Shown in pieces: positions 9,289-20,620 of a DNA stretch of 22,622 bases. The notes beneath the pieces were generated by a model. It was not told the DNA's origin. It ran no database searches and saw only the letters and a list, made by a program, of their open reading frames with translations. The position numbers and the translations under genes were made by a program. Source of the DNA: a virus; IMG/VR virus record IMGVR_UViG_3300042391_000582, positions 1 through 22,622 of that record, one strand, 5' to 3'. Position 1 is the stretch's first letter, and the number at the start of each line of letters is the position of its first letter.

Positions 9289-9644
9289 AAATTGAAGAAT
9301 CATCTCAGTATCAGAATTTGATTGGTGAAAAAAAAGTAAAAGATAATAGACCCGTTTCTCTTTTAGATCACATGGAATTAAATGAAACTGAGAAAGAAAA
9401 ATATACTGACCAAGATGAAAAAGAATCGAAAAAACTTTGGAAAGGAATGCCTGAGTTTGAACAAGAAGACAATGCAACATATAAAACAATCTATGTGCAT
9501 TTCAGAAATGAATCTGATTATAAAGAATTTGCTAAATTAGTTGATCAAAAAATTTCAATCAAGACAAAGAGTATCTGGTATCCAGCACTTGATAGAACAC
9601 AAAACTCTCTTCTTAGGTGGGTAGTCGATGATGCAGAATCCTGA
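9285..9644 (+). CDS. Small phage protein paired with TAGT glycosyltransferase
   Basis: The 119-aa product overlaps the exonuclease stop by four bases and the following glycosyltransferase by 17. The N-terminal half is charged and probably flexible. The C-terminal half has a recognisable phage motif: 'LWKGMPEFEQEDNATYKTIYVHFRNESDYKEFAKLVDQKISIKTKSIWYPA'. From memory, proteins with this 'W..MPEF.Q.......I.V.F....D...FA.L..Q.....T.S.WYP' pattern often stand next to TAGT-type glycosyltransferases in phages. The biochemical role is not known to me. The overlaps suggest coupled translation, so a shared pathway with the next gene is likely. Confidence 0.75.
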   Translation: MKIEESSQYQNLIGEKKVKDNRPVSLLDHMELNETEKEKYTDQDEKESKKLWKGMPEFEQEDNATYKTIYVHFRNESDYKEFAKLVDQKISIKTKSIWYPALDRTQNSLLRWVVDDAES

Positions 9645-10566
9645 GCATCCAGTTTATATTATATCAAAGGGTCGTGCTGACTCAATGATTACTTCAAAGT
9701 CACTTTCAAGGATGAAGGTGCCTCACTATATTATTATTGAACCACAAGATGAAAAGCCATATGAAGATGCACTAGATAAATTTAATATCAGACCTTGGGT
9801 CACTTTGATTGTCGCACCATTTTCAAATCATGGCGATGGTCCTGGTCGTGCAAGAAATTATGCATGGGATCATTCGATATATATTGGTGCAGAAAAACAT
9901 TGGGTGATGGACGATAATATTTCAGACTTTTATAGACTACATAAAAATCAACGAATTCGTGTTGAATCTGGTGTACTCTTCTATATCTGCGAACAGTTTA
10001 TTGATAGATTTGAAAACGTTCCTGTGTCTGGTTTGCAATATAGATTCTTCATTGCACCAAATCAGAAGTATCCACCATTTGTAAAAAACACTAGAATTTA
10101 TTCGTGCCTTTTAATTGATAACAATTGCAAACATCGTTGGCGTGGTCGTTATAATGAAGACACCATTCTAAGTCTTGACGTTCTTAAAGATGGTGATTGC
10201 ACAATCCAGTTTAATGCATTCTTGCAAGGTAAGGCAGCCACACAAACTGTCAAAGGTGGTAATACTTCAGAATTTTATCACGCTGAAGTCGGCTTTGATG
10301 ATGAAACTGGTGAAGCAATTAAAGCAGATAAGTTAGTTGATGCGAAAGGCAAAAAATACAATGAGTCTGGTACAATTGCAAAATCACAGATGCTTGCTGA
10401 TGTTCATCCAGATGTTTCTAGTGTGGTGTGGAGATATGATCGCTGGCACCATTATGTTGACTACTCTCAATTTAAAGGCAATCAGTTAAGATTGAAGCCA
10501 AACATAATCATACCAAATGAAATTAACAACTATGGAATGAAACTTGATACCAATTGGAGAAATTAA
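9628..10566 (+). CDS. TAGT-type (TET-associated) DNA glycosyltransferase
   Basis: The 312-aa protein resembles the phage TAGT family of GT-A-like glycosyltransferases, some of which add sugars to hydroxymethylated DNA bases. Visible hallmarks are 'PVYIISKGRADS' at the N-terminus, 'GPGRARNYAWDHS' (71-83), 'KHWVMDDNISDFYRL' with a DDN metal/nucleotide-sugar motif at 95-97, and 'HRWRGRYNEDTILSLDVLKDGDCTIQFNAFLQGKAATQTVKGGN' (169-212) with a second acidic NED motif. AGGTGG at 9615-9620 supports ATG 9628 (a second ATG follows directly). If T4-like hydroxymethyl-dCMP synthesis exists elsewhere in this genome, it would supply the substrate; nothing in this window shows that. Confidence 0.8.
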   Translation: MMQNPEHPVYIISKGRADSMITSKSLSRMKVPHYIIIEPQDEKPYEDALDKFNIRPWVTLIVAPFSNHGDGPGRARNYAWDHSIYIGAEKHWVMDDNISDFYRLHKNQRIRVESGVLFYICEQFIDRFENVPVSGLQYRFFIAPNQKYPPFVKNTRIYSCLLIDNNCKHRWRGRYNEDTILSLDVLKDGDCTIQFNAFLQGKAATQTVKGGNTSEFYHAEVGFDDETGEAIKADKLVDAKGKKYNESGTIAKSQMLADVHPDVSSVVWRYDRWHHYVDYSQFKGNQLRLKPNIIIPNEINNYGMKLDTNWRN

Positions 10567-15082: not shown

Positions 15083-15703
15083 ATGAGACAAGTGACCGAT
15101 CAAGATCAAAAATTTGAAGTTCTTCCTGTTGTGGAAGGAGTATTTACACGCCCCAGTGGTGTAGTATATGATTTTTATTTAAATGAAACCATAGAATCTC
15201 CTAGTCAATACGTTGCTTGGAATCATATAATTCGTTCAGCAGCAGAAAGAGATATAATTTATTTGCATATTAATTGCTATGGCGGAGATGTTATGACAGC
15301 CATACAATTGATGAGATCAATTGCTGAATCAAATGCTCATGTTATTGCTTCAGTAGAAGGTGCTTGTATGTCAGCAGCCACTTTCTTATTTTTAATTGCA
15401 GATTCTTTTGAGATATCAGAACACTCAATATTCATGTTTCACAATTATTCAGGATTTTCATTTGGTAAAGGCAATGAAATGAGAGATAAAGTTAATCATG
15501 AAGAAAAGTGGGGTAAACATTTACTTGATTCTATTTACTTAGACTTTCTTTCACCTGAAGAAATAAAAGAAATTTCTAACGGTAAAGATTTTTGGATGAC
15601 ACCTAGTGAAGTGCAAAAGAGGCTAGAATTGAGAGTTAAGAAATGGGGTAAAAAAACAGCAACAACAAAATCTTCTCCAAAAAATACGAATAAAAATGCT
15701 TGA
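15083..15703 (+). CDS. clpP: ClpP-like serine protease
   Basis: The product is 206 aa from ATG 15083, with AGGA at 15074-15077; a frame from TTG 15068 is less likely. The Clp/crotonase protease fold is clear: oxyanion-hole segment 'NCYGGDVMTAIQLMRSI' (64-80), nucleophile Ser97 in 'EGACMSAATFLFLIAD', His120 in 'IFMFHNYSG', and Asp169 in 'GKDFWMTPSEVQKR'. The size matches host ClpP. The C-terminal 20 residues are Lys/Ser/Thr-rich and probably disordered. No ClpX/ClpA-type unfoldase is in this window, apart from the MoxR-type AAA+ protein 3 kb downstream, which is a different clade. It may degrade host or phage proteins, or replace host ClpP subunits. Confidence 0.92.
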   Translation: MRQVTDQDQKFEVLPVVEGVFTRPSGVVYDFYLNETIESPSQYVAWNHIIRSAAERDIIYLHINCYGGDVMTAIQLMRSIAESNAHVIASVEGACMSAATFLFLIADSFEISEHSIFMFHNYSGFSFGKGNEMRDKVNHEEKWGKHLLDSIYLDFLSPEEIKEISNGKDFWMTPSEVQKRLELRVKKWGKKTATTKSSPKNTNKNA

Positions 15704-15780: not shown

Positions 15781-16017
15781 ATGAATGTTATGATTAAAGG
15801 TGTTGTGATTGCTACTATGTTGACAATGATTGCCTGCAGTAATGAGGCAGAAGTTTCAGAAGAGACTGTAGCAGATGAATTACTTCCTGCAGGAACATCT
15901 TTTGATGTAAGCGATTTGCCTGCTGTTCCAGTAGCAGAAGAAGTAACTGAAGAAGAAGTCGCTGAAGAAGAAGTAACTGAAGAAGAAGTCGCTGACAGCA
16001 TTGCTGACGAAGTGTAA
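15781..16017 (+). CDS. Small predicted lipoprotein with acidic repeats
   Basis: The product is 78 aa. Lys6 is followed by a hydrophobic segment (GVVIATMLTMIA) and Cys19, reading M-I-A-C, an imperfect lipobox (Leu is more usual at -3). Ser follows Cys, which would favour the outer membrane by the usual +2 rule. After cleavage a 60-residue acidic tail remains, with the tandem repeat (V-T-E-E-E-V-A-E-E-E)x2. AAAGGA (15767-15772) is a good ribosome site. It is a stand-alone unit with its own promoter and leader hairpin and an inverted repeat downstream. Small phage lipoproteins such as T5 Llp block receptors against superinfection; that role here is only a hypothesis. Confidence 0.75.
   Translation: MNVMIKGVVIATMLTMIACSNEAEVSEETVADELLPAGTSFDVSDLPAVPVAEEVTEEEVAEEEVTEEEVADSIADEV
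15936..15995 (+). repeat. Two exact tandem 30-bp repeats inside the lipoprotein gene
   Basis: 15936-15965 and 15966-15995 are identical, encoding two copies of a ten-residue Glu/Val/Thr/Ala unit. Copy number could vary by slippage without changing the frame. Confidence 0.85.
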
Positions 16018-16031
16018 AAAGTATCTTTTAA

Positions 16032-16071
16032 AATCAAGCACTTACACAACGATTACTGTAAGTGCTTGATT
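16032..16071 (+). repeat. 14-bp perfect inverted repeat downstream of the lipoprotein gene
   Basis: AATCAAGCACTTAC (16032-16045) pairs with GTAAGTGCTTGATT (16058-16071) around a 12-base loop. There is no T run after it, so it may be a factor-dependent terminator, an RNA-stabilising hairpin or a protein-binding site. The same core sequence forms the inverted repeat at 18556-18603. Confidence 0.75.
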
Positions 16072-16100
16072 CCTCACGAAAAAATAAATTCAAATAGTGC

Positions 16101-16129
16101 TTGACTTTTAGCATTTAGTGTGCTACCAT
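16101..16129 (+). promoter_or_regulatory. Cassette promoter copy 1 (distal, VWA gene)
   Basis: -35 TTGACT (16101-16106), 17-base spacer, -10 TACCAT (16124-16129), within AGTGCTTGACT...CTACCATATACG. It is a diverged copy of the promoters at 16204 and 18655. Confidence 0.75.
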
Positions 16130-16167
16130 ATACGTCTAAAGTGAATAAATTACTGTAGATATAAGTC

Positions 16168-16250
16168 ATTGATTTCATTAGCAAAAGAAATTTCAAATAA
16201 TGCTTGACTTTTCGTATTTGTTGTGTTACCATATACGTATTGAATGAAAA
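16168..16250 (+). repeat. 83-bp promoter cassette, copy upstream of the VWA gene
   Basis: By hand alignment this stretch matches 18619-18701 with seven mismatches over 83 bp and no gaps. It contains the whole promoter, including the spacer. A third, shorter and more diverged match surrounds 16092-16136. Confidence 0.85.
16204..16232 (+). promoter_or_regulatory. Cassette promoter copy 2 (proximal, VWA gene)
   Basis: -35 TTGACT (16204-16209), 17-base spacer, -10 TACCAT (16227-16232). CGTAT (16213-16217) and ATACG (16233-16237) form an inverted pair around the -10 region, a possible operator. Confidence 0.82.
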
Positions 16251-16269
16251 AGGTTGTGAGGACCTGTGT

Positions 16270-18510
16270 ATGAAAATCGAATCAAAATCAATGTTAGCAA
16301 AGTTACTTGCAACTGAAAACATATCAGTTGAAGTAAACTCATCATTGTCAACAGCCGCTTTTAACCCAACAACCCGTGTAATGTATCTTCCTCAATGGAA
16401 AGAAATGGCTACTGCCACTCAAGACTTGCTTATCGGTCATGAAGTCGGTCATGCTTTTGAAACTCCAGCAGAAGGATGGCATGATGCTATATGTGACGAC
16501 AAATCCCTCAAAGGGTTTCTCAATGTAATTGAGGACGCTCGTATTGAGCGTAAGGTAAAAACACGTTACCCTGGTTTAGTCCGTAGTTTTTACGCGGGCT
16601 ATCGTGACCTTTGGGAACGTGATTTTTTCGGTGTCAAAAATATTGATGTCAATACCCTCCCTTTGATTGACCGCATTAACCTACACTTTAAAGTAGGGTC
16701 ATATGTAAATGCAAAGTTTACTCCTGAAGAACAGGTATTCGTAAACCGCTGTGCCAAAACTGAAACATGGGAACAAGTAGTAGAACTTGCCCGTGAATTA
16801 CATGGTAAAGCAAAGGATGATGCTGAAGAAAACATTGAACAATTGATGCAACCGTTTGTCTATGAAAATGACAATACTCCTGATGATGAGGAAAATGACG
16901 ATTCAGAATCTAATATGGAAATGGAGGGTAACACCCCCGATTCTGATGAAGACTCTGATTCTGATGAAGACTCTGATTCAGGTGATAGTTCGGATGATTC
17001 GGACTCTGATGATGATTCTGATTCGAACTCTGATGATGATTCCGATTCGGACTCTGATGATGATTCGGATGATGATTCTGAGGTACCTTCTGCAATTCAG
17101 GATTTTGTAGATAACGGCGGTGCTGTTTCAATCACTGATGCTGCTTTCCGTGAGAATGAATCTAGTTTGGTGGATGATTCAGTAAACAAAGAAACTGTTT
17201 ACATTAACATTCCTAAAGTTGATCTTTCACAATTTATTATTTCCCCAAAAGATATTTACAATTGGGATAATGTTAAAATTGATCACGGTTTTATACAGCC
17301 TAAAGTGTATGCTCAAACATTGTATTCATCTTTTGTTACAAAAAATAGTAAAACCATTAATCAAATGGTTGCAGCATTTGAGATGAAGCGTAAAGCATCA
17401 CTTTTCATTAAAGCGCGAACCGCTAAAACAGGTGATTTGAATGAGGATCGTCTGTGGGCATATAAAATTTCTGATTCATTGTTTAAGCAAGTAACTAGTA
17501 TCCCTGAAGGTAAAAGTCACGGATTCATTATGTACCTGGATATGTCAGGCTCAATGTCTCCAAACATGGCGGATACTATAGATCAATTAATTAATTTGAC
17601 AATATTTGCTCGTAAAATAAATGTTCCTTTTGAAGTGTATGGGTTTAATTCGTATGATTCATCATATGAACCTACACACACTCCATTGACTAATGAATAT
17701 GAATTATTGGATATTAAACTTGTAAATCTTCTATCTTCAAGTTTTACTAAAACTCAGATTGAAGAGGCATACAAATTCCTGTTGTTGTATAAGCAATCAT
17801 TTTTAGCAAGAAACAGCAGATCAATACCTGATATTTCGTTGGGTAACAAATATTTTAGATTAGGAAGTTCAACGCCTCTTAATAAAACATTGGTATTGGC
17901 TATTGAAGTTGCTAAATCTTTCCGTGAAAAGACGAAAGTTGAAATTCTTAATACTATTATTTTAACTGATGGTGATGCTACTGATGATGGTGAGTACTGG
18001 AGTTTTCGTGATGATTCTGCACACAAAGGATTTGTACGTACACGACCTTCTTACTATAAAAACAAATACTATTTTAAATATGATTCAGCATCATATCCTG
18101 TTTTAGGTGATGTGGATGACAGGTATGTTAAACTAACAATTAGTTTACTTGAAATGTATAAAAGTGTAACTAATTCTAATGTGATTAATTTTCACATAGC
18201 TGGTAAATTAAACAAAAGAAGCAGTTATAATAGTCACCATGCTTCTAAAGTAGGCAATAAAGAATTTTCATGGATTGAATGGGACAAAAATTGGAATAAG
18301 CAACAAGCCTCTGGGGTAGTTGAAATTAAGGACGCATTGGGTTTCAACACTCGGTATATATTGTCTGGTGACACCTTGAATATTAGAGACCAAGAATTGA
18401 CAGTAAAGTCTGATTCAAAAGGTGATTTGTTGCGAGGTTTCCGTAAGTTTGCGAGTTCTAAGTCCCAGCAACGCATACTTATACAGAAATTCATACCACA
18501 AGTTGCTTAA
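16270..18510 (+). CDS. Zincin-like / von Willebrand A (CobT-like) protein
   Basis: The product is 746 aa from ATG 16270, with GAGGA at 16258-16262; a longer frame from TTG 16204 would begin inside the promoter. The N-terminal domain has 'LLIGHEVGHAFETP' with HExxH at 57-61 and a downstream 'NVIEDARIERK' (E88/D89), a metallopeptidase-like pattern. Residues 200-272 are an Asp/Ser/Glu-rich linker. The C-terminal VWA domain has a complete MIDAS: D424-x-S-x-S428 in 'YLDMSGSMS', T535 in 'GSSTPLNKT', and D567 in 'LTDGDATDDG'. Such VWA proteins act with MoxR/CobS-type AAA+ ATPases, and one is encoded next. The target complex is unknown; a cobaltochelatase role is not implied. Confidence 0.9.
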   Translation: MKIESKSMLAKLLATENISVEVNSSLSTAAFNPTTRVMYLPQWKEMATATQDLLIGHEVGHAFETPAEGWHDAICDDKSLKGFLNVIEDARIERKVKTRYPGLVRSFYAGYRDLWERDFFGVKNIDVNTLPLIDRINLHFKVGSYVNAKFTPEEQVFVNRCAKTETWEQVVELARELHGKAKDDAEENIEQLMQPFVYENDNTPDDEENDDSESNMEMEGNTPDSDEDSDSDEDSDSGDSSDDSDSDDDSDSNSDDDSDSDSDDDSDDDSEVPSAIQDFVDNGGAVSITDAAFRENESSLVDDSVNKETVYINIPKVDLSQFIISPKDIYNWDNVKIDHGFIQPKVYAQTLYSSFVTKNSKTINQMVAAFEMKRKASLFIKARTAKTGDLNEDRLWAYKISDSLFKQVTSIPEGKSHGFIMYLDMSGSMSPNMADTIDQLINLTIFARKINVPFEVYGFNSYDSSYEPTHTPLTNEYELLDIKLVNLLSSSFTKTQIEEAYKFLLLYKQSFLARNSRSIPDISLGNKYFRLGSSTPLNKTLVLAIEVAKSFREKTKVEILNTIILTDGDATDDGEYWSFRDDSAHKGFVRTRPSYYKNKYYFKYDSASYPVLGDVDDRYVKLTISLLEMYKSVTNSNVINFHIAGKLNKRSSYNSHHASKVGNKEFSWIEWDKNWNKQQASGVVEIKDALGFNTRYILSGDTLNIRDQELTVKSDSKGDLLRGFRKFASSKSQQRILIQKFIPQVA

Positions 18511-18555
18511 CTGTAGTATGACACACAAAAAATCTCAGATATTGAGTAGGAGATG

Positions 18556-18603
18556 TAAGTGCTTGATTCTTCGTTAAAAAATTGTATATGAATCAAGCAC
18601 TTA
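18556..18603 (+). repeat. 14-bp perfect inverted repeat between the VWA and AAA+ genes
   Basis: TAAGTGCTTGATTC (18556-18569) pairs with GAATCAAGCACTTA (18590-18603) around a 20-base loop. The core AAGTGCTTGATT is shared with the hairpin at 16032-16071, and as there a cassette promoter follows about 50 bases further on. Confidence 0.75.
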
Positions 18604-18618
18604 TTTCACTTGTAACTT

Positions 18619-18701
18619 ATTGATTTATATAGTAAAAGAAATTTAAAATAATGCTTGACTTTCCGTATTTGTTGTGTTACCATATACGTATAGAATGAAA
18701 A
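18619..18701 (+). repeat. 83-bp promoter cassette, copy upstream of the AAA+ gene
   Basis: Partner of 16168-16250 (seven mismatches over 83 bp, ungapped, counted by eye). The similarity stops shortly before the leader, but both leaders carry TTGTGAGGA as the ribosome site region. Confidence 0.85.
18655..18683 (+). promoter_or_regulatory. Cassette promoter copy 3 (AAA+ gene)
   Basis: -35 TTGACT (18655-18660), 17-base spacer, -10 TACCAT (18678-18683), with the same flanking CGTAT/ATACG pair as copy 2. Confidence 0.82.
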
Positions 18702-18732
18702 ATTAACTAATGTCTTGTGAGGAGACTATATT

Positions 18733-19932
18733 ATGAACAATCCGACTTTTGTAGAAAACCTTCGTCAATTAGTTGACGGTAATAACTGTGTTCGCCGTAA
18801 GGACATTGTTGATGTGGCATCTGCTGCTGGACTGGTCATCCAACAGTGGAAACTGGATATGTATAAAGTTGATAGAGGACTTTATGATTTGACCGAAATG
18901 TTTGCAGGTACCGCTAAAAGTTTTGCTCGCCCGGTGCGAGGTACTTTGCCTTCAGTTCGACCCACTAAACTTGAGGTTGTTAATACAACACAAGCTCCAG
19001 TTTCAGTTCCATCTGCTAAAGTTGTAACAATGGCTAAACTGATTATGGATATTCAGAATTTGGTTCCTTCGAAGGATGATACTTATGTGCCTTTCGGTTT
19101 TCATAAGGATCTTAAAACCATTTTGAATGCAGGTATTTTTTATCCTGCGTTTATCTCAGGACTTTCTGGTAACGGTAAAACCACAATGATTGAGCAAGTT
19201 TGTGCCCAGCTCAAGCGTGAGGCTATCCGTGTTAATATTAGTATTGAAACCGATGAGGATGATTTGATCGGTGGCAATACACTAGTTGATGGTAACGTAG
19301 TCTATCGTGAAGGACCGGTCCTCACCGCCATGAAACGTGGCGCGGTCCTAATCCTTGATGAAGTAGATCGTGGCTCTAACAAGTTGATGTGTCTCCAGGC
19401 CATACTTGAGGGCAAACCCTACTTCAATAAGAAGACTGGCGAAACCACTACTCCTGCCCGCGGGTTTACTATCATAGCCACTGCTAACACAAAGGGCCGT
19501 GGATCAGACGATGGTAAATTCATCAGCGCACAGTTGTTGGACGAAGCGTTCCTGGAGCGTTTTGCAATTACCGTGGAGCAGGAGTATCCTACAATGGCAG
19601 TTGAGAAGCGTATTGTTCTCAACAAGATGGAACGCGCCGGGTGCGTTGATGATGAATTTGCCACTCATCTTGTTACTTGGTCAGACGTTATACGTAAAAC
19701 CTATTTTGAAGGTGGTATAGACGAGCTGGTCAGCACCCGGCGCTTGGAACACATTGTCAATGCCTTTGCAGTCTTTAAGGACAAGATTAAGGCTATCACT
19801 TTGTGTACTAATCGTTTTGATCCTGATACTAAACAGGCGTTTGTTGATTTGTACAGCAAAGTTGATCCTTCAAATCTTCAAACATCAGAAGAATCTACTA
19901 CTGATATGTACAGTGAGGAGATTAGTTTTTAA
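18733..19932 (+). CDS. cobS: CobS/MoxR-type AAA+ ATPase
   Basis: The 399-aa product has Walker A 'GLSGNGKTT' (143-151, K149), 'IETDEDDLIGG' (171-181), Walker B 'VLILDEVDRG' (205-214), sensor 1 in 'IIATANTKGRG' (N252), a likely arginine finger in 'LLDEAFLERF' (R276), and a sensor 2 arginine in 'VSTRRLEHIV' (R336/R337). This set is typical of the MoxR/CobS clade, which remodels proteins together with a VWA partner; the VWA gene lies directly upstream under an almost identical promoter. The N-terminal 110 residues are a separate helical region. GC content is raised in the middle (19300-19780), unlike the flanks. The cobS symbol follows cyanophage usage and does not prove a role in cobalamin synthesis. 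Confidence 0.9.
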   Translation: MNNPTFVENLRQLVDGNNCVRRKDIVDVASAAGLVIQQWKLDMYKVDRGLYDLTEMFAGTAKSFARPVRGTLPSVRPTKLEVVNTTQAPVSVPSAKVVTMAKLIMDIQNLVPSKDDTYVPFGFHKDLKTILNAGIFYPAFISGLSGNGKTTMIEQVCAQLKREAIRVNISIETDEDDLIGGNTLVDGNVVYREGPVLTAMKRGAVLILDEVDRGSNKLMCLQAILEGKPYFNKKTGETTTPARGFTIIATANTKGRGSDDGKFISAQLLDEAFLERFAITVEQEYPTMAVEKRIVLNKMERAGCVDDEFATHLVTWSDVIRKTYFEGGIDELVSTRRLEHIVNAFAVFKDKIKAITLCTNRFDPDTKQAFVDLYSKVDPSNLQTSEESTTDMYSEEISF

Positions 19933-20249: not shown

Positions 20250-20543
20250 ATGGGATTTAAAGTACAATTCACAATGACAAAACCCTCTGAGGATACGGAC
20301 GTATCTACTATGAAGGTGATAGAAGACCCACTAGCAATTACAAGTCTCTTATCTAAATACGAAGGCACTCAAGAAATTTTTAAAGAAGGAGCAGTAAAGA
20401 GTATAATTTACGGATTTCCAACACAAGCAAATTGGCAAGCGTTTTACAACGAAGCACTTCCAATCTGGAATAAAGCTGGATTGATGAGTAAAGCTGCCAA
20501 TTTAGGTATTACATACGATGTTAAGGTTGTAGAAAACAATTGA
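20250..20543 (+). CDS. Small conserved-type phage protein, unknown function
   Basis: The 97-aa product has a strong ribosome site (TTAGGAGATATAA before ATG 20250). Visible traits: a Thr/Ser/Asp-rich beginning 'KVQFTMTKPSEDTDVSTMKVIEDP', then mixed alpha/beta segments 'FKEGAVKSIIYGFPTQANWQAFYNEALPIWNKAGLMSKAANLGITYDVKVVE'. No signal peptide or membrane segment is present. I recognise no family with certainty. It lies between a late promoter and the gp45 promoter, so it may be expressed late even though its neighbours are replication genes. Confidence 0.75.
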   Translation: MGFKVQFTMTKPSEDTDVSTMKVIEDPLAITSLLSKYEGTQEIFKEGAVKSIIYGFPTQANWQAFYNEALPIWNKAGLMSKAANLGITYDVKVVENN

Positions 20544-20568
20544 CAAGTTAGTTTGTGTATGTTATAGT
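20540..20568 (+). promoter_or_regulatory. Sigma70-type promoter of gene 45
   Basis: -35 TTGACA (20540-20545, overlapping the upstream stop codon), 17-base spacer, -10 TATAGT (20563-20568). A second TATAGT (20582-20587) comes from the duplicated 17-mer listed separately. Confidence 0.86.
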
Positions 20569-20591
20569 ATACAATGTATGTTATAGTATAC
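20556..20591 (+). repeat. Direct repeat over the gene 45 promoter -10 and start site
   Basis: TGTATGTTATAGTATAC occurs at 20556-20572 and 20575-20591, a 17-bp exact repeat separated by two bases (period 19). Each copy contains the palindrome GTATAC. It could be paired operator sites or a simple duplication. Confidence 0.8.
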
Positions 20592-20620
20592 GAATATTAT
20601 TTTATTTATGGAGATATATT

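Follow-up and report, generated by a model that had tools for sequence, protein, structure and literature searches.

A dispersed, PeSL-like early-promoter cassette as the likely source of the near-identical promoters of a VWA/CobS gene pair in a T4-like phage

Nearly the same promoter sequence stands before two neighboring genes of a T4-like phage, one for a VWA protein and one for an AAA+ ATPase, and we asked if this sequence is a switch reserved for the pair or an element of more general use. The window, meaning the whole stretch of DNA that was analyzed (22,622 nt), is a 22.6-kb IMG/VR fragment of a marine or aquatic, Kyanoviridae-like phage. The reading that we favor, with a probability of roughly 0.78, takes the sequence for a composite early-promoter cassette, similar to the promoter-early stem-loop (PeSL) cassettes, that has been copied around the genome of a T4-like phage and lies dispersed in it.

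The VWA and CobS genes and their phage

The two genes are the following:

16270..18510, + strand: VWA/HExxH protein of 746 aa, matching phrog_459 ('peptidase', E 2.4e-175) and carrying a DMSGSMS MIDAS-like motif
18733..19932, + strand: AAA+ ATPase of the CobS/MoxR group, 399 aa, matching phrog_249 and AAA_5 (E 9e-16)

The AAA+ protein matches midasin at E about 6e-36 and the solved structure of cobaltochelatase CobS at E 1.8e-20. Comparison of the VWA protein with Pfam gave no match, with VWA not appearing even at E 5, and the assignment is based on its DxSGS motif together with the fold of a model whose mean pLDDT is only 64.7; this fold is closest to the NorQ-bound VWA domain of NorD and to the MIDAS domain of midasin. 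An AAA_5-type ATPase thus adjoins a VWA protein, as in the known pairs of CobS/MoxR AAA+ proteins and VWA partners. Because of the CobS and midasin matches and the NorD and midasin fold matches, the two proteins are likely to form such an AAA+/VWA partnership.

Phrog matches identify gene 23 (major head protein) and gp55 (late sigma factor), and head, tail-tube, UvsW-like, gp47/46, gp45 and gp44 genes were recognized from order and sequence, those T4-like calls that lack a family search being made by eye. T4-type late promoters (TATAAATA) lie at 1969, 3118 and 4714, before the homologues of genes 22, 23 and 19. A ClpP-like protease, a small lipoprotein-like ORF, the VWA/HExxH protein and the CobS-like ATPase occupy the interval between gp46 and gp45. 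The peptidase-cobS order is annotated in P-SSM4, Syn1, S-CAM7, S-RIM50 and Pelagibacter phage Mosig, the cultured carriers being Prochlorococcus, Synechococcus and Pelagibacter phages of the Kyanoviridae, and cobS is a cyanophage core gene (PMC3037559). Our search of the literature found nothing direct on the VWA/MoxR pair in phages. In the window, an Rfam search gave no match and a tRNA search found none.

Three further features were seen. The lipoprotein-like ORF (15781-16017, + strand, 78 aa) has the look of a small lipoprotein (MNVMIKGVVIATMLTMIACS... followed by acidic EEV/AEE repeats) and its own TGCTTGACA promoter at 15697; the acidic tail is also seen in the relative L005. The protein encoded at 9628-10566 (+ strand) matches phrog_842, a family annotated as beta-glucosyl-HMC-alpha-glucosyltransferase, and might be a sign of modified DNA or of another glycosyl transfer. 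The promoter that precedes the gp45 region (20540-20600, + strand) shares sequence with a short direct repeat, two copies of GTATGTTATAGTATAC, which yields a second -10-like TATAGT close downstream.

Promoter copies and stem-loops in the window

The intergenic stretches before the two genes hold these elements:

16032..16071, + strand: stem-loop 1, 15-bp stem AATCAAGCACTTACA/TGTAAGTGCTTGATT with a 10-nt loop, shortly past the stop codon of the lipoprotein-like ORF
16092..16136, + strand: promoter copy 1 (pattern match 16098-16135), -35 TTGACT at 16101-16106, -10 TACCAT at 16124-16129; distal promoter of the VWA gene
16162..16251, + strand: promoter copy 2 (pattern match 16201-16238), -35 TTGACT at 16204-16209, -10 TACCAT at 16227-16232; proximal promoter of the VWA gene
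within 16162..16251, + strand: upstream parts of copy 2, a TAAGTCATTGATTT element followed by the A/T-rich, UP-like AAAAGAAATTTCAAATAA
18556..18603, + strand: stem-loop 2, 15-bp stem TAAGTGCTTGATTC ... GAATCAAGCACTTA with a 20-nt loop, between the VWA stop codon and promoter copy 3
18613..18702, + strand: promoter copy 3 (pattern match 18652-18689), -35 TTGACT at 18655-18660, -10 TACCAT at 18678-18683; promoter of the AAA+ gene
16059, 16162 and 18556 on the + strand, 16044 and 18603 on the - strand: repeated unit TAAGTnnTTGATT

A repeat search returned copies 2 and 3 as a 90-nt repeat with 90% identity and a third copy at 76%. An earlier note on this DNA had described the repeat as 83-bp blocks (16168-16250 and 18619-18701) with seven mismatches, and the count is exact (16176, 16177, 16178, 16182, 16194, 16212 and 16241). 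TTGACT-N17-TACCAT is likewise present in all three copies as it had claimed, and the copy that it called diverged differs at 7/45 positions from copy 2 and at 8/45 from copy 3. The 38-base pattern TGCTTGACTTTNNNNNTTNNNTGTGNTACCATATACGT matches the window three times (16098, 16201 and 18652, all on the + strand) and 100 shuffled sequences not once; in IMG/VR, the exact pattern occurs in only two fragments, both near-identical to the window. Those other sigma70-like promoters of the window with which we compared the cassette are distinct from it, as had been stated, and differ from the three copies at 12-18 of 29 positions. The CGTAT/ATACG arms that the earlier note places around the -10 box are present in copies 2 (CGTAT 16213-16217, ATACG 16233-16237) and 3, and copy 1 lacks the first arm. 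Three uses of the cassette do not mean three regulated genes, for the VWA gene has both copies 1 and 2 before it, in tandem and with 103 bp between them.

TACCAT is a weak -10 box. A MotA-type middle promoter was considered and rejected: in T4 the Mot box TGCTTtA lies 11-13 nt before TATAAT and there is no sigma70 -35 (PMC1524935), whereas the TGCTTGA of the cassettes is 19 nt from the -10 and overlaps a normal -35. A T4 late promoter, which has TATAAATA at -10 and no -35, was also rejected, as TATAAATA is absent from the cassettes.

The stem-loops upstream of copies 1 and 3, which the earlier note does not mention, stand out from shuffled sequence (z -6.6 for 16032-16071 and z -5.1 for 18556-18603). 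Their stems are built from the unit TAAGTnnTTGATT and its reverse complement, and the arms (TAAGTGCTTGATT) resemble the -35 region (AGTGCTTGACTT; AGTGCTTGAYT). All five strict occurrences of the unit in the window (three direct, two inverted) fall within the two intergenic stretches that bear cassettes. Copy 2 has a lone TAAGTCATTGATTT arm in place of a full stem-loop. Given 15-bp stem-loops upstream of copies 1 and 3 and a lone unit at copy 2, we regard the cassette as a stem-loop plus promoter and not as a promoter alone. The unit itself looks modular because hairpins of both polarities occur in relatives, where its two variable bases are usually matched on both arms (GC/GC, CA/CA), with mixed, mismatched pairs found too. 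The stem-loop probably serves to shield the promoter from transcripts that arrive from upstream, or else to end such transcripts. On the + strand neither stem is followed by a U-tract, and a terminator scan of the window lists neither stem-loop; in the relatives L007 and L008, AAGCCCTTA...TAAGGGCTTT ahead of the promoter has a terminator-like look. A TAAGTGCTTGATT hairpin with a 24-nt loop was also seen in three far longer viral contigs, L169 (217 kb), L174 (340 kb) and L177 (64 kb), which possibly belong to other phage groups.

Cassettes and matched promoters in related phages

The earlier note had proposed a private switch for the two genes and had named, as evidence that would speak against it, occurrence of the motif before many unrelated genes. 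This is what the relatives show. A 56-aa ORF is preceded by the same upstream half in other contigs and by the same stem-loop in L042, L149 and L155/L192; the last of these, whose core TTTACATTTATTGTGCTATGATATAC resembles that of the window, lies in a 15-kb contig that also encodes UvsX. At least six cassette copies are carried by the 22-kb contig G009 (L039/L148/L190/L191), before ORFs of 92, 143, 69, 52, 56 and 118 aa, and two of them stand in tandem before the 92-aa gene, like those of the VWA gene in the window. Across the window's clade the UP half of these cassettes is 80-98% identical to that of window copies 2 and 3, whatever the gene. In a 170-kb relative, about ten GAGTGCATAAT-type promoters stand before the genes for VWA, CobS, a phosphohydrolase and DNA polymerase as well as before ORFans; the polymerase was identified through a family match obtained at the homologous site in L184. 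Since relatives place the cassette before unrelated early genes, we take it to be a general early promoter. Enrichment of the element TAAGTnnTTGAT is clear in the window's clade (G009, 8 occurrences vs 0.4 expected) and weak or absent in large pelagic records (G023, 14 vs 9.2), and it therefore looks like a feature of the clade. Between VWA and CobS, L007 carries an additional ORF of 72 aa that falls exactly between two cassette promoters, and L008 and L010 have a single promoter there; this is a module indel bounded by cassettes, which would have arisen by recombination.

The relatives L005 and L006, with 92% CobS identity over the aligned part, carry cassettes at the same places as the window and keep the stem-loop, the UP-like stretch and the -35. 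The spacer, -10 and start region of both their promoters are TCATAAAAACTTCTGTATAATACTTGTATAAACTGA or a relative of it, with TATAAT as the -10. The shared operator proposed in the earlier note is thus not supported, because these phages keep the upstream half and the -35 but have exchanged the whole of the spacer, TACCAT and the CGTAT/ATACG arms. Relatives at 94-96% (L004 and L072) already have TATTAT in place of TACCAT, and no arm is kept beyond the closest relatives; as an operator the arms were rejected, the first being absent from copy 1 and both from L005-L008. Core identity is 95% between the VWA and CobS promoters of the window and 80% between those of L005, against 55% for the two VWA promoters and 45% for the two CobS promoters when window and L005 are compared. 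For the VWA upstream half this order is reversed (96% between orthologues, 86% between window paralogues).

A recent local duplication, with one or two tandem or dispersed copyings in this lineage and little divergence since, would account for the tandem arrangement of copies 1 and 2 and for the 90% identity of copies 2 and 3. It is very unlikely, because the same three places are occupied in L005/L006 by cassettes with different cores, so that the copies predate the split from these phages, and because upstream halves are closer between orthologues and cores between paralogues.

Within a phage, the likeness of the VWA promoter to the CobS promoter goes beyond genome-wide similarity. With sites located by regular expressions that demand a -10-like box, the two promoters of one phage were closer to each other than to their orthologues in 19/21 phages. 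Mismatches over spacer and -10 averaged 3.4, compared with 9.3 for shuffled partners, and none of 2000 shuffles of the 21 distinct phages did as well, a significance that is overstated since the phages are related and the shuffles ignore this. In six of six larger records the two promoters are each other's closest match, with 1 vs 4, 0 vs 3, 3 vs 4, 2 vs 20, 3 vs 4 and 5 vs 6 mismatches to the partner and to the next-closest promoter, respectively, so that the margin is small in several of them. This mutual match exceeds what a purely genome-wide promoter family needs. The excess similarity begins at about -58 and ends at about +26 relative to the -10 box, and it peaks in the spacer (about 0.77 within phages vs 0.46 between phages). 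Convergence on an ordinary sigma70 consensus, in which selection by the same host sigma factor produces chance likeness, would fit the TTGAC and the region before the -10 that are common to early promoters of these phages. It is extremely improbable, as the bases that match within a phage include those of the spacer and start region, with which sigma70 can dispense, and as convergence cannot produce an 83-bp identity or stem-loops.

The same matching bears on a dedicated two-gene switch, in which a phage or host regulator would read the common spacer and -10 so that the AAA+ protein and its VWA partner are made simultaneously and in a fixed ratio. The 19/21 and 6/6 counts, the limitation of the excess to the core promoter and its near flanks, and the resemblance of the products to interacting AAA+/VWA partners (top fold match, NorQ in complex with the NorD VWA domain) are all in its favor. 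We nevertheless consider such a switch unlikely: the same promoter types stand before unrelated genes, arms and spacer sequence differ between close relatives, the promoters are poorly matched in the clade L086/L087/L091 (8-9 mismatches), and by eye cultured Syn1 and Mosig have no comparable spacer match. Somewhat more doubtful still is a putative phage or host factor that reads the spacer and start region of both promoters, leading to their co-evolution and joint switching across T4-like phages, with a sequence that shifts along with the factor. Of the separately controlled two-gene module in the earlier note, what stands is that each gene has its own sigma70-type promoter, recurring in relatives and matched within a phage, and what falls is the private switch with its shared operator.

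We infer that the matching reflects concerted evolution, most simply by recombination between cassette copies. In the dispersed-cassette reading, each cassette would open with a stem-loop, whole or half, and continue through an A/T-rich, UP-like stretch, TGCTTGAC and a 17-nt spacer to a -10 box, at which host RNA polymerase with its housekeeping sigma factor would start early transcription. Tandem copies 1 and 2 would serve the VWA gene and copy 3 the CobS-like AAA+ gene. Spread of copies through the genome and recombination among them would keep the cassettes nearly identical, and the VWA and CobS copies would trade the core (-35 to about +20) as a short tract, so that both change together from phage to phage. 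The literature gave us nothing direct on concerted promoter evolution in phages; the locus offers a measured case of promoter pairs changing together, in which tracts of a few dozen bases that make up the cores would be exchanged and the flanks conserved. If the matching were due to selection and not to recombination, the widespread and unexplained VWA/CobS pair would have to be expressed in step.

Comparison with known phage promoters

PeSL cassettes of T4-like phages were reportedly described by Arbiol et al. in 2010 (evq006) and Comeau et al. in 2014 (evu129), both cited in PMC4503421. Our definition of them is drawn from the titles of these two papers, a summary in PMC4503421 and general knowledge; that summary names PeSLs as mediators of gene shuffling in T4-like phages. 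On this definition, the cassettes of the window share with PeSLs a stem-loop joined to a sigma70-type early promoter (here copies 1 and 3), several near-identical intergenic copies per phage (three in the window, at least six in G009) and a gene indel between two copies (here L007 vs L008/L010, with recombination as the presumed route). They differ from PeSLs so defined in sequence, in their 10-20-nt loops and in the lack of a U-tract behind the stem, terminator activity not being evident, and in serving a conserved gene pair as well as ORFans. The finding adds an uncultured aquatic T4-like clade to the phages with composite stem-loop/early-promoter cassettes.

In T4-like phages the consensus of early promoters is particular to each phage and has an A-rich stretch at -40 to -44, and novel ORFs are among those that early promoters precede (Nolan et al. 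2006, PMC1524935). The cassettes share with these promoters their sigma70-type hexamers, an A-rich UP-like stretch, a phage-specific consensus (-10 TACCAT in the three window copies, TATTAT or TATAAT in relatives) and use before both conserved and novel ORFs. They differ in that the match here takes in the 17-nt spacer as well, the VWA and CobS promoters forming the closest pair.

The peptidase-cobS pair (phrog_459, phrog_249) of T4-like cyanophages and pelagiphages consists of the same genes in the same order, upstream of gp45. The cultured cyanophages listed differ from the window in their CobS (about 47-62% identity) and in intergenic promoters of other sequence. S-CAM7 has its own matched terminator-promoter pair before peptidase and cobS. 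In the L231, L233 and L234 set, the two S-CAM7 promoters have a terminator-like CCCC...GGGGCTTTTT and ATGCTCTATAATAAT in common, and a TGTCCACT-like element lies before both peptidase and cobS in P-SSM4, S-RIM50 and S-CAM7.
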